Assembly: GCA_030062745.1 (NCBI GenBank) | Contig: CP099842.1 | Coordinates: 20,617,822-20,681,821 of the forward strand | DNA length: 64,000 nucleotides | Origin: Capitulum mitella | Taxonomy: Eukaryota > Arthropoda > Thecostraca > Pollicipedomorpha > Pollicipedidae | Direction of reading: 5' to 3' | Shown: one piece after another, positions 18,148 to 50,095 of the stretch | Position numbering within the stretch: position 1 is the stretch's first letter | Layout of the letters: each line of letters starts with the position of its first letter | The notes under the pieces: generated by a model | Told to the model about the DNA's origin: nothing | Seen by the model: the letters and a program-made list of their open reading frames with translations, nothing else | The model's database searches: none | Position numbers and translations under genes: made by a program

Positions 18148-18982
18148 GCGGGACCACGGCGCCGGAGCGCGGCGCGCGCTTCTCTTTTCATGTGTGGGTG
18201 TGGAGCGCGGTGAAGTCTTATGTCTGGGATGGGGCGGGGGGGGGGGGAGGGCGTGCATGCGCTGCGCCGGACTGCGCGAGGACGCGGCAGACAACGGCGA
18301 GTTATGATTAGTTTGTATTTGTAACAGTGAACGGGAATACAGTCACGGACAGACGACACTCACATTTGGTCCCTGGTTAACCAGCTGCTGTTGGTCCCTA
18401 TGCCTACATAGGACGGGCGACCGGCGCGCGGCGGCCGCGGCGCCCGGCCGCGCCGTCCAGGCGTCGGCGCGTCATCGGCGGCGCCCCCAGAGCCGGCCCC
18501 TGTGTCGCGTGGAGGCGGCCGCCGACCAGGCGCCGACGGGCTGAGGCATGCGATGGATTCGTCATTGCTATCTCTTAACTGCTTCTTAGGCCGGAAAATC
18601 GCAGTCGTAATAACGGGCAAGACAGGTCTTCCGCTGCTTCTGAAACCGCGTTTTCAATCGGGCGATTCACGCCCGTACAGTTCTTCAGCGCATCCCACCG
18701 TTTCGTGGACGGCAGACGTCACTTCACGTCTGTCGTTACGAAATCGCTACAGGAATCGCCATCACGTGTCTGTATCGTGCCTATTTAAATCATGTACCTT
18801 GACTCGAAGCTTTCAGCCACACCTTCTGGTGAATTCTTCCGTGAACTGTGTCGAACAGTTCACGGGTTTGGGTTGGTTCAAAACATTTTCAGCGAATTAC
18901 TTTGCGAAAAATCGAGTTGTGGTCTTTTCCGACGTCCAAGAAGCGAGATTCGATTTTCATCCGGTAAGTCGTCCTTGCTTTG
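18148..18982. other. Convergent 3' region between mRpL22 and TH
   Basis: Holds the mRpL22 3'UTR, with a poly(G) run around 18236-18247, and then a GC-rich stretch to 18540. I saw no canonical AATAAA for mRpL22 and no further gene. Confidence 0.5.
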
Positions 18983-19140
18983 CCAGCTCAGGACCCCGGT
19001 GGTCCCAGCCTGGTCGTGGACCAGCCAGCTCAGGACGCCGGTGGTCCCAGCCTGGTCCTGGACCAGCCAACTCAGGACCCCGGTGGTCCCAGCCTGGTCC
19101 CTGACCATCCGGCTTAGGACCCCAGTGGTGCCGGGCCGCG
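18983..19140. repeat. 42-bp minisatellite in TH 3'UTR
   Basis: Nearly four copies starting at 18983, 19025, 19067 and 19109, with core CTCAGGACCCCGGTGGTCCC. The first three are close to identical and the fourth diverged. The array ends about 10 bp from the TH stop codon. Confidence 0.9.
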
Positions 19141-19148
19141 CCTGGACC

Positions 19149-19314
19149 TCAGAACTTCATCTTCTGCACGGCGCTGTTGAGTCGGATCAGCTGGCCGTGC
19201 AGCAGGGAGACCATGGCGCCCACCTTGTCCACGTCGTCGACCTGCTCCACGGTCTGCGTGTGCGGGTTGTACCACACCTCGTACGGTCGACTAAGGGAAC
19301 TGGCCACCCAGCGC
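19149..19314 (-). CDS. ple: TH coding exon 10 (C-terminal)
   Basis: [20 protein letters not shown] then the helix [15 protein letters not shown]. Stop at 19149-19151. Confidence 0.94.
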
Positions 19315-22300
19315 CTGCCGGCATCAACCGGGCACGGAACTGTCAGCACGGAGGGATCAGGGACGTCATGAGCAACAAAATATTTGCGGCATACTTGTGA
19401 GATGGTGGCAATTATTTGTTGTGATTTCGTGTCTAAGAAAACGTTTGTGCTATACTGATATGCATTAGAGTGTCGTTCATGTTGGCAGTGGTGCCGATCT
19501 CACTGATCTTTTTGTCGGTCAAGGATTGCGTTTATTATACAATAAACGTAACCCTGGGGACCTTCGGGCTGTTCAACTCTGTTGTTTTACCTCGTCGTCC
19601 GGCTCCGTTAATAATTTATCGTGACCATTCGTCATTTCCAGGAGCCAAAAACTGAATATCCATCAACCCAGTCCTTTCCGCATCACAGTCTCCAAACCAC
19701 GGTCCCGTCCAACCTCCACCGCGCGCTTTCGTTGCCCGGTTTGGCAGTCGGGCCGCGTCGCACCTGAACTTGTCCTGGGCGTCCTGCAGACTTTCGGCCA
19801 CGAAGTACGTGTCCTGGTAGTCCTGGTCCTGGTACGGCTGTACGCACGTGGTACTCGGCTCGAACGGCAGGTGCTGCGGCCGCTCCGACAATGAATGCTC
19901 CAGTTCACCGTACGAGGAGAGCAGGCCGGCGCCGTACGCCCGCAGCTGACCATCCTCCCGGCACAGGCCAAACTCCACCGTGAACCAGTACATCTGCCGG
20001 CACAGGCCAAACTCCACCGTGAACCAGTACATCTGCCGGCACAGGACAAACTCCACCGTGAACCAGTACATCTGCCAGCACAGGACAAACTCCATAGTGA
20101 ACCAGGACATCTGCTGGCACAGGCCAGACTCCGTGATGTACACGTGAAAATGTACATCTGCCGGCACTGGCCAAACTACAGCGTGAACCAGTGCATCTGC
20201 CGGCGCTGGCCAAAATTTACGGTAAACTAGTGCCTTTGCTAGGATGTGACGGATTAACGCAGCGTGCGATGATGCAACATTGAATATCCATCGTTTACAA
20301 GCGACACTCATCCCGTTCTTTTCGCGGACAGCTATAGCTGTATAACATTGGCAATGAAACTGTTTGTTCTTGTGCTTGAACGTCGGCACCATTTCATAGC
20401 CTTTACCGTTGCAAACTTCTCGATCTCCTCGTCACTGGCTCCCAAGGAAGCCAGACCGAGCTCTTGTGAGAATTCGGCAAAGAAAGGATCCGCCAGCAGG
20501 GGTGCGTGGCCTAGAAGCTCGTGAATGCAATCTCTGTAACAAACACGGAAGCTGTTGGTTACATCTTAAGGATGGCAGAGCCAGACTGAGGAATCTAACC
20601 ATTTACGAATCATTTCGGCTTATGTTCACCGTTTTTACGAAGCATGTCAAGGTTTTCTTCTGATCAGAAGCTGGAATTGAAATGATCTGCTGCATTTCCT
20701 GGAGGGCTGTAAAGTTCAGGCTGGTGGAAACTTGTGCACATGATTGATACAGAGACGTTCTTGTTCTTGTCGTGCAAGAGTGTCATCTATATCGACTTCA
20801 TGTTATAGGTGGCGTTGGCTACCGCGACGCGTCATCGGAGCCCGAGCAGTTCGTCTCAGATGCGCCATAGGCGAGACGGGGGAAGGATCATTAACGGGAA
20901 GACTGCGCGCGACTGTGTTATTGCATGCTGGCGAGAGCTCGCAAAGCTGACAAGCTACCGTTGAATCGGAGCGGAACCAGCTAAGCGGGTATGTGCTGTC
21001 TTATGATATATCTTATGGTTAGATTTTTGAACAGACTTGTCATAATTTGTTTGCCATAAGAAAGCGGCTTTCGCAGTACCAATATTCGTGCCCTGTAATG
21101 ACTTTCTCTCATTAATGCGAATTTTGGTAAAACAACTGGCTTTTCTGTATCCGTGAATTTTCCAGGAAGTCGCATTATCCTATATTAAACTTGCTGTTAA
21201 CAAATGTGTATTGAGTGACATTTCACTAGCATTGCCACAGGAGGTGTTTGGGTTGCAGGTTTGCATAATTGAAGAGTAAGTGAAATGAGCAAGATAAAGC
21301 CTCTTATAGTCGGAAAGTTAGACTTTTGCTGTTTTTGTCCCACATGTAGGTCTGGACAATATGTCGCATTCCTACCCTTTCACAGACCACTTTTGTTGTA
21401 TACATTATATGGAAGAGCTGGTAAACTTTCCTCCAAAAGAAACGGTGATGCTACCAGCACCATTTTCAAAGGAAATAGTGTTACATGTCACCTTAACAAA
21501 CATGACTGGGAGTTGTGGCTTCATCTTGTTTGCACTGCTTTTGCTCCAAGGATTGTTTGCTCCTGTTTATTGCATAACATTTGATGGAGTCATCAGTATA
21601 TGATAGTAATGATATTAGAGGCTGCAGGCTGATGGTTAGGTTAGATTAGGTATCATGCTATTCTTATATATTATCTGTTAAGCTAGAATATATTGATGAT
21701 GTATGTTCCAAAATAACTTGTTACCAGAGAGTCTTAGCAGAAACCAAACAGAAGTAGTGCACTATCAGTGGTGAATAGAGTGACAATATTCTTTGGCAAT
21801 TTTTTGAGATTCCTCATCTTGGAATGGTATTAAGTAGCTCTGTAACACAAATATTTGCCTTTTTTGCTGTGAATTAAGCATGTGGTGGGAATGTGTTGCA
21901 TGACCTAGATCTGGCATGCTTTAAATTTTTTCTATGACCATTATTCAGTTATTGTATGAATGTTAAGTCACTCTGAAACATCCCCATATATTTTTATTAC
22001 TGTAAAACCCTCTCCAGTATAAATGTAATGACTGGGTATGAAAGACTTAACAAATTCAGTATGTCTGAGCATTGTCCATGGGCTCCATGGCATAGGGACA
22101 GATGTATTCCCCCTCAAATTTTCATTAGTGAGGATAAGTCTTTCCCAGCCTTTGAGGGAAATTTTCATCATCTGTGCAACTTGGTGAACAAAACCGGATT
22201 AATTATTTCCTCCAGGATAGGGTATGCTAGTTGGTATAGATTGATTCCATCCTGGTGGTAGGAAAGCTGTGCAGAAATATACAAAAAGAAATATACATGA

Positions 22301-28300: not shown

Positions 28301-31300
28301 CCTTACCCCATTTAGCAAAGCGTGGACGTCGTCATTTGCAGGTTCGAGATCCTTGCCGTATCTGACTCCTAAGGTGCCAGTGCCCGTCACTGCTGGTGTT
28401 CATCGTACCCACCGCCCGCCACTGATGCCGTCCCCCGTACTCCTGTACTGTGACGGGTGGGCGCATCACCTTTGATGCTGGCCGATCCCTGGTTGAGGAT
28501 CTCGGAGGCGGCCACGGCACTGCTCTGCCTGAGCGACCTCATCAGCTGGCGCAGGTCGTCCGCGGAGAGGGTGACGCGCAGCAGCACCTGGTGGGTGGTG
28601 TCCGGCCGGCGCGACACCCGCGACTCCACGTGCTGCAGACTGCCGCGGTGGCTCTGCCGGCACCGGCCGCAGTCAGAGTCCAATGGTTCCCCCAGTTTCC
28701 CATGGGACAGCACGAACCAGTCGGATCGGGAACATTCTACCTCGCTGTTATTGACAAAAAATATCCTGAATAGCTGCACCCCGGAAAGGCTGCTTAAATA
28801 CACCAACGAACGAACAAATGGACCTTCACTGGGTGCGGACCGGGGTGCGTGGGCAGGGGTCAGCGTCCCCACCTCGATGGTTTTGATGATGCGGCCGAGA
28901 CTGTTCATGCCGGACTTGATGGAGAGCACGAGCACGATGTTGAGCGGCCCGGAGACGGTCTCGTCCGTGGGTGATGAGGCCGCCAGCAGCACCTCCTCCT
29001 CGGACAGGTCGTCATCTGGAGGCGAGCACAGACTCTAAAACCGCGCCGTCCCGCTGTCAGCGGGAGGCCCCAGCTCGGTCTGGGTGAAGACAGTCACAGG
29101 AGTGGCGTCACAGGCACAGGAGTGACGTCAGACAGTTAGTCACAGGCGCGAGAGACGGTGCCCTCTACAGCGGAACGATACGGGCATATGGCGTGGGGCC
29201 ATATGACACACGCCTTGCACTAAATGTGATTTGAATGAGGAGCAAATTTTGCTCCGGCAGCACATTGCAACATCGGGCCAGGGCAAAGTGCATTTTAAAA
29301 GGAGGAATTCCCAAACCACTAAATGAATGACGTAACGCGAATAAGCTTGCGGATCGCACCAACAGATGTAAAAAGCGGGAAGACTTTTGGTGTACGGAAA
29401 TGATGCTGCAGTGCAACCAGAACGATTAACGTGACTGCACGATGCGTCTCATTTGCAACGTATTCATCCTGGTGAGGGAATACAAAAATGGAAAGACTGT
29501 GGTTTCGAAATAATCGTTTTAAATGATTTTGAAGGCTAATGAACACATGTTTAATGACATTCACAATAAACATGTCACCGTTCGCCACCCGTTCTCCTAG
29601 GTTGTGAAAACGTAATGATCACCGAATATAAACGTGCCATGACCAGGCTGAACAACAAGAGGAAAGCCACAAAGGCAGAAAGATCCAAAACCAGAATGGA
29701 ATTAATTTTGAAAGCTTTTCCCTTTTCTCATTTATCTCACTCACTCTCTAGGTTTTCTACTTTTGCCCATTCTCTCTCCGACCGTCTTTTTCTCTCCCTT
29801 TCATTGCTCCGCCGTCACAGCTGATTCCTCCTTTCGGCACACGACCACACAGCAGACGTATAGCACCAGTCACAAGCACCACTCCACCGACACCCCTCCG
29901 CGACGGACGATCCCTGACGGCGGGGTACCCGGGGTCACGTCGTTTGGATGTCGTTACCAGTCTCACGTTATCATCCGACAACCTTGGATCTCTCATTTCC
30001 GCGCCAGTCAGGAAATCCGCTGGCAGATATGTGCCTGGAGGCCTTTTACTGGCAGGACACGGAAAACAACATTTTGGGAAAAATGTGCAGACTCAGTCGC
30101 AATGATGAAAACTTCTCAAACGGTACAACTGTTTTACGGCGGACTTATTGCTTTCTCGACAGGGAATTGTCACAATACACAGAGTTCCTGCGAACATATT
30201 GCAAGTAAGTCGACGGTACGCCAAACCAATGAAGGCGTACCAATGGTCCACATCTTGTGACGAACAACGGTTCAATGAATCTCAGTGAAGAAAGACCCTG
30301 GAACAATGCGGAGAGACGTGGGTCTGTCACACTCGAATCAGATCGAGCAATTTTTCGACCCCTTTGAGCGACCTGATTTTTTACTAAAGACGGGAGCGGA
30401 TCCAGGATTTCGCCAGGGTGGGGGAGGGGACGGCGAATGATTAACGCGGGGCCTCCTTCCGGCCTGAGCCCCCATTTTTTGCTATTCATCTATGAAAAAC
30501 GTTGATTTGTTCGGGTCCAGGCTGAAATATTTGATGAAATTTTGCGTTTTTTTGCCGTATTTATAACCAAAAAAATTTGAGCGCGTCACCTAATTTAAGA
30601 AAATTTTGTGTTTTGTTCCCCTACAACTTGGCCAAAATGTGACAACAATGGCGAGATTTTAGACAGCTGAGTCCCTTCCTCTACTTCAAATATCGTGTCT
30701 GAATCTAGTCCAGAAGTCCTTCTGCCCCTCGTAGCTCCTGGAGACTCGGGCAGTGTCATGGACCCATTTAGCAGCTTCAGGAACACTTAAGCCATCCGCG
30801 TTCCTTCCTGTCGTACCTGATGAATTTTCGCCGTCTTAGAAACCCCTCAGGAAGTAACAAGGGCCCTCTATAAGACTCTCTGCCGTGACAGTGGTGCCTC
30901 CGGCAATGCTCTAGGTCCTTTGGCCGTTTCAGGAGCTGTCTGGACGTCTCAACGCTTAGTAGTTCCGGGGTCCATCTGGTCATCTCATTGGACGTGATGT
31001 CTTAGGTGCTCTTCTTGTCGTCTCTAGGGGACATTTTTGTCGTCTCAAGAGCCCTCTGGAAGTTACAAAAGACCTTTTGGCGATTTCAGGGCCCTTGTGC
31101 AGTGTCATGGACCCTATGAACGTCTCCGGTAGTCTCCATGGCTATAACAGGGGTCTTCCTCTGTTACATGGGGTATGTCTGGCAGTCTTAAGGCCGCTCT
31201 AACCGTATCAGAGGCCTTCGTTAGCGTTTCAGTCTGAAACGCTAACGAAGTCTTAGGGGGACCTTTTCTGTGCCAGAAGCTGGCCTAACACACTCGGGGG

Positions 31301-49831: not shown

Positions 49832-49917
49832 GCCGACTGCGCGCGGCCGCGGCGACCCGCCCACGCGCGCTGCCGGCCCGCCCCCGGGCGCCGGCTCGCC
49901 ACGCCCCGCAGCCGGCG

Positions 49918-50095
49918 GCGACCCACTGCCGGCGACGGGCCGGTCTGCCCTGCGGCGACCCACTGCCGGCGGCGGGCCGGTCTGTCCTGCGGCGACCCAC
50001 TGCCGGCGGCGGGCCGGTCTGCCCTCGGCGGCAGGCCGGTCTGCCCTGCGGCGACCCACTGCCGGCGGCGGGCCGGTCTGCCCTGCGGAGAGGCC
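49918..50095. repeat. 37-bp minisatellite upstream of TH
   Basis: GCGACCCACTGCCGGCGGCG units start at 49918, 49955, 49992 and 50051, with a partial copy between the last two. It lies 90-270 bp upstream of the putative TH TATA box. Confidence 0.9.

Follow-up and report, generated by a model that had tools for sequence, protein, structure and literature searches.

The window, a stretch of 64,000 nucleotides of Capitulum mitella DNA, contains a tyrosine hydroxylase (TH) gene on its minus strand (19149–49812), modelled with 10 exons whose 544-residue product is free of inner stop codons; the exon numbers used here depend on this present 10-exon model. The identity of the gene, proposed in the preliminary description, is borne out by two comparisons. 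Among the seven models listed, TIGR01269 (tyrosine 3-monooxygenase) fits best, its 633.9 bits falling just short of the cut-off of 654.65. The gene model also aligns with a solved TH chain (6zvp_D) with an E value of 5.1e-147; in this alignment the junction of exons 8 and 9 is gapless if the copy designated U1 below is used. The N-terminal motifs are, we take it, of the arthropod TH type. Exon 8 (20407–20533) ends at the donor ACG/GTAAAGG (here and below, the slash marks the exon border) and is followed by an intron of 413 nt and by the 230-nt exon 9 (19764–19993), whose start holds the Glu iron-ligand motif. Exon 10 (19149–19314) includes the stop codon.

The border between intron 8 and exon 9 is occupied by seven tandem copies on the minus strand (19955–20235), six of them 39 bp long and one, U5, 47 bp. 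Six copies make up the last 242 nt of the intron, and exon 9 itself begins with the seventh. The array was returned by TRF at 19958–20214 with a period of 39, 6.4 copies and a score of 323, together with an overlapping row at 20155–20233. About seven 39-bp units had been described within the intron; the count of seven stands, with the amendments that one unit has 47 nt and another is exon 9 itself. Read on the minus strand from ATG to CAG, each intronic 39-bp copy comprises 12 exon-type codons followed by CAG, the latter forming the acceptor for the next copy. The unit had been given as 13 exon codons plus CAG, which was incorrect: codon 13 of the exon, in U1, is GAG, and the copies have CAG in its place. 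A CAG precedes six of the seven units. The earlier view that the exon start was duplicated together with its acceptor is supported.

U1 (19955–19993) is the first 39 nt of exon 9 with the Glu motif, and its acceptor CAG ends at 19994. U2 (19994–20032), whose terminal CAG is this same acceptor, is identical to U1 over 36 nt. Over that length U3 (20033–20071) has 1 difference, which turns a Gly codon into Val, and U4 (20072–20110) has 5, with the Gly to Val change in common; both are in frame. U5 (20111–20157) carries 8 additional nucleotides that break the frame, and it was left out of the difference counts owing to this indel. U6 (20158–20196) has 4 differences, and its Glu codon has become a stop; two of its changes recur in U7 (20197–20235), the most decayed of the 39-bp units, which has 10 differences, a stop at the Trp codon and an upstream acceptor that has become CAA. 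The preliminary description of the nearer units as in frame and free of stops therefore holds for U2–U4, beyond which U5 shifts the frame and U6 and U7 carry stops. A decay with distance from the exon is likewise apparent from U2 through U3 to U7, but the counts for U4 and U6 mean that it is not strictly monotonic.

An nhmmer profile made from the six 39-bp units themselves recovered these units with E values between 2.7e-13 and 2.2e-10; U5 was recovered in part, at 0.0039, and the next match in the 64 kb has an E value of 2.2. Exact searching of the 477-Mb assembly with a 32-mer from the unit gave two sites, each within the array. The whole array has one match in the assembly (E ≤ 0.001); besides it there are two pieces of 35 bp, which fall on the homologous exon in paralogues. 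The same genome has four aromatic amino acid hydroxylase paralogues, which we name tryptophan-hydroxylase-like or phenylalanine-hydroxylase-like after their motifs, and in all four the homologous exon begins at the identical codon border, CAG/TG[CT]T[AT]CT. TRF listed no array at any of these four exon starts. The same intron position without an array in four paralogues shows, by sequence comparison, that U2–U7 are derived copies.

Across U2, U3, U4, U6 and U7 there are 17 distinct changes, of which 4 are synonymous, 11 are replacements and 2 create stops. The random expectation is 3.9 synonymous changes, so that no coding selection is seen on these copies; they lack coding constraint and drift as neutral sequence. 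The identity of U1 and U2 over 36 nt indicates that the latest duplication or homogenisation was probably recent. Neighbouring units have changes in common (one in the pair U3 and U4, two others in the pair U6 and U7), as block-wise tandem duplication predicts.

The ends of the unit offer a possible starting point for this duplication. The acceptor 9-mer TGCCGGCAG agrees at 8 of 9 positions with TGCCGGGAG, which lies 39 bp into exon 9, and this confirms the microhomology noticed earlier; near-identical 9-mers at this spacing would suit slippage or unequal exchange. The ancestral border of intron 8 and exon 9 would have read ..CAG/ATGTACTGG..TGCCGGGAGG.., and slippage or unequal exchange between TGCCGGCAG and TGCCGGGAG would have duplicated it in tandem, with more rounds of duplication leading to seven copies. 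The exon-side copy would stay under coding selection and the remaining copies would become a new 3' end of the intron, subject to neutral drift. Exon 8 would most likely still be spliced mainly to U1, giving normal TH.

Tandem repeats across exon–intron borders, named mirages, are described in the amphioxus genes Adh3, globin (BflGb6 and BflGb9), TnC and PGBD5, with units of 10–160 bp and, for one globin array, haplotypes of 6 and 3 units (PMC3087553, PMC3902484). In the accounts given there many units copy a splice signal, either border may be affected, and inner units are homogenised while boundary units are diverged (PMC3087553, PMC3902484); the arrays are reported not to disturb regular splicing (PMC3087553). 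The TH array resembles them in its tandem units across an intron–exon border with the splice signal included, and in having the authentic exon edge at one end of the array, which according to the gene model still encodes the normal protein. Its gradient from the identical U1 and U2 to the outermost U7 is like that of mirages in turnover, and Capitulum mitella, like amphioxus, has arrays at both acceptors and donors (see below). It is unlike them in that the exon-side boundary is not diverged and the decay is not strictly monotonic; it also comes from another animal group, and its 39-bp unit is a whole number of codons. Judged by sequence, the TH array is a structure with the anatomy, exon edge, turnover and border types that define mirages. 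Word-matching searches of the open-access literature found mirage-type structures in amphioxus papers only, and reports elsewhere may exist.

Other known systems are less close. Intron gain or sliding through tandem duplication of proto-splice sites, with copies that can turn intronic, is described in Drosophila (PMC2891723), and the TH array is similar in that a tandem duplication adjoins a splice site. Intron gain by tandem duplication was rejected for TH, since the position is not novel and is found in all four paralogues. New introns of Daphnia are reported to contain internal direct repeats ascribed to staggered-break repair (PMC4202315); these too are repeats within crustacean introns, but they lie in newly gained introns, whereas the TH intron position is common to the paralogues and what is repeated there is the exon edge, in a multi-copy array. 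The array also does not correspond to NAGNAG tandem acceptors, its acceptors being 39 or 47 nt apart and only that of U4 being preceded, at a distance of 3 nt, by another CAG (20113), or to duplicated alternative exons, as the units copy the exon start and acceptor alone and the donor of exon 9 at 19764 lies outside the array.

Our preferred reading is that the TH array is a mirage-type minisatellite, a neutral by-product of growth across an exon edge, with U1 mainly used. We give it a probability of roughly 0.78; within it, the slippage mechanism, the use of U1 and the absence of function are what we infer.

The choice of acceptor was evaluated with a simple, crude scoring matrix whose frequencies are not fitted to Capitulum mitella. 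The unit acceptors score 3.44 (U1), 5.56 (U2), 6.24 (U3), 3.44 (U4), 1.31 (U5), 0.64 (U6) and -4.4 (U7), and other AGs of intron 8 score 4.03 (20337, upstream of the array), 3.62 (20113), 3.53 (20205) and 3.23 (20238). On the same matrix the remaining eight acceptors of the TH gene score between 0.99 and 7.72, and those of the paralogues 3.42, 3.42, 3.42 and 6.99. The acceptors of U3 and U2 are thus the top scorers among the intron 8 AGs scanned and exceed the exon's own, and that U1 is not the strongest acceptor counts against the reading that it is used. Products were predicted for the acceptors of U1–U6 and for the AGs at 20113, 20166, 20205, 20238 and 20337, U7 being left out as it has no AG. 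Splicing to U1, U2, U3 or U4 is predicted to give full-length in-frame TH lengthened by 0, 13, 26 or 39 residues; use of the CAG at 20113 would add 40, again in frame and at full length. A frameshift is predicted for the U5 acceptor and the AG at 20166, where a stop would be met only in the last exon. For the U6 acceptor and for the AGs at 20205, 20238 and 20337 the predicted stops come earlier, 415 to 571 nt upstream of the last junction.

The copied acceptors could accordingly be used, with U2, U3 or U4 giving TH isoforms that carry 13-residue blocks directly before the Glu iron-ligand segment, possibly tuning or disabling the enzyme. Besides the in-frame products and the high scores of U3 and U2, this would be favoured by the G-to-T change common to U3 and U4, which improves the pyrimidine tract before them. 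The distribution of TGCCGGCAG points the same way. Counting both strands, the window has 5 occurrences against 0.97 expected from shuffles: three sites are in the array (19994–20002, which is the exon 9 acceptor, 20033–20041 and 20158–20166), and the other two, 19315–19323 and 28654–28662, are the acceptors of TH exons 10 and 4. It is therefore present at three of the nine TH acceptors and elsewhere in the 64 kb only in two array copies, the chance that both non-array sites fall on acceptors being ~7e-6 in what is a post-hoc test. Against the use of copied acceptors stand the lack of coding constraint on the copies and the Gly to Val change of U3 and U4, which alters EFG of the motif. Insertions in the catalytic core would also be likely to harm the enzyme, and amphioxus mirages of like layout reportedly leave splicing undisturbed (PMC3087553). 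We consider this alternative unlikely, and live use of the copied TH acceptors would be a surprising outcome.

All four in-frame unit acceptors (3.44–6.24) score above the three out-of-frame ones (-4.4 to 1.31), as might be expected if selection favoured in-frame acceptors that can be used; against this, the age of the units predicts an identical order, there are only seven of them, and out-of-frame AGs outside the units reach 4.03. By eye, TTCAC, a branch-point-like motif, is found in all units (as TTTAC in U7) about 26 nt before the CAG, or 34 nt in U5, so that the duplicated exon sequence may itself provide the 3' splice-site context. Against the use of U1, the sequence just upstream of it would be exon-derived, and the original branch point and pyrimidine tract, if any, would now be about 240 nt away.

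A second alternative is a length-variable decoy, in which out-of-frame acceptors send part of the transcripts to decay and the copy number sets TH output. The early stops predicted for U6 and for the AGs at 20205, 20238 and 20337 would be suited to this. The out-of-frame unit acceptors are nevertheless the weakest of the array, though these three AGs score 3.23–4.03, and U5 and the AG at 20166 lead to a stop only in the last exon; we regard such a decoy as very unlikely. A regulatory RNA structure in the array was rejected on its unremarkable folding, as the array with its flanks folds no better than shuffled sequence (z -0.22; equalled or bettered by 43 of 100 shuffles). Rfam at gathering thresholds found one tRNA across the window and nothing else.

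That the copies were made by read misassembly can hardly be credited: U1 and U2 do not differ over 36 nt and one aberrantly assembled mirage is noted for the amphioxus draft (PMC3087553), but U3–U7 differ by substitutions and an indel, which misassembly does not create, the array occurs once in the assembly, and comparable arrays are present in other genes. The copy number in the assembly could be wrong even if the array is real.

Three further arrays of this kind, all at donors, were found in the genome, alongside the acceptor array of TH. In the gene on C14 that we take to be tryptophan-hydroxylase-like from its motif, a 57-bp unit with 5.2 copies and 97% matches repeats the exon end with a GTGAGT donor (L032:6772-7064; G000:C14:9676772-9677064). 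The other two are in two of six myosin-head loci. One is a 45-bp array that repeats the exon end GGATACCCGTCCAG/GTGGGC (L065:5317-5500), and the other consists of three 79-bp copies of exon end and donor that run from L066:7683 into L069, with GC instead of GT in the two outer donors. The donors at all three places were deduced from the ends of homology matches and a GT. A 19-bp array beside a myosin exon (L068:1988-2052) was rejected as edge-spanning, being purely intronic. Elsewhere, clustered matches to one stretch of the myosin head model (about 377–436) were observed at G000:C16:5450234-5453643 and G000:C15:16425920-16428593; muscle myosin genes with alternative exons show similar clusters.

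A survey of exon edges returned near copies within 800 nt at 4 of 124 exon-match edges (TH included), at none of 62 exon middles and at 2 of 95 intron points, one of the latter sitting within the TH array itself. Neither difference reaches significance (Fisher P 0.70 for edges against introns and 0.30 for edges against exon middles), so the survey does not show that mirages favour edges over introns or avoid exon middles. The edges were taken from 62 homology matches (9 TH exons, 19 paralogue matches and 34 of 86 myosin matches), whose ends approximate splice sites and form a small sample chosen by homology. The 18 TH edges, one of them the stop codon, were chosen because of the array, and without TH the count is 3 of 106; the paralogues L030 and L031 are near-identical and not independent. 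At 30 kinase loci, which are outside the 124 and many of whose matches are long open frames containing few edges, no listed array (period at least 15, score at least 60) crosses a match end, and two lie inside the L059 match.

The genome is rich in minisatellites. With a TRF score of at least 100 and a period of at least 20, five arrays cover 2.16% of the window, and the cover is 0.71% in 67 kb around the paralogues and 2.26% in 108 kb around the 30 kinase matches. Arrays with a period of at least 15 number 16 in the real window and 1 in a mononucleotide shuffle. In the literature, mirages figure as a trait of lancelet genes and as something that might give rise to new introns. Their presence at 4 of 124 exon-match edges in an arthropod genome suggests that genomes rich in minisatellites may generally produce such structures as a by-product. 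The near-identical tandem copies provide a natural test of how the spliceosome chooses one acceptor or donor. If mirages occur at a few per cent of the genome's exon edges and the copied TH acceptors are live, the animal could make TH proteins in which the iron-ligand segment is repeated in 13-residue blocks, the number of blocks varying from one individual to another and perhaps also among cells; we regard this combination as distinctly unlikely.

Further repeats were observed around the TH gene. A second array lies near its 3' end, with TRF rows at 18982–19129 (42 bp, 3.5 copies) and 18982–19148 (84 bp, 2.0 copies), and the 84-bp row ends beside the stop codon on its 3' side. Overlapping rows with periods of 17 to 59 are found at 49911–50084, about 100 nt upstream of the exon 1 start codon in the model. 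Finally, GATGGATATTCA is present at 19653–19664 and 20281–20292, once in each of the introns that flank exon 9 and the array; in a search that allowed up to 1 mismatch, at least two matches were seen in 2 of 100 shuffles.
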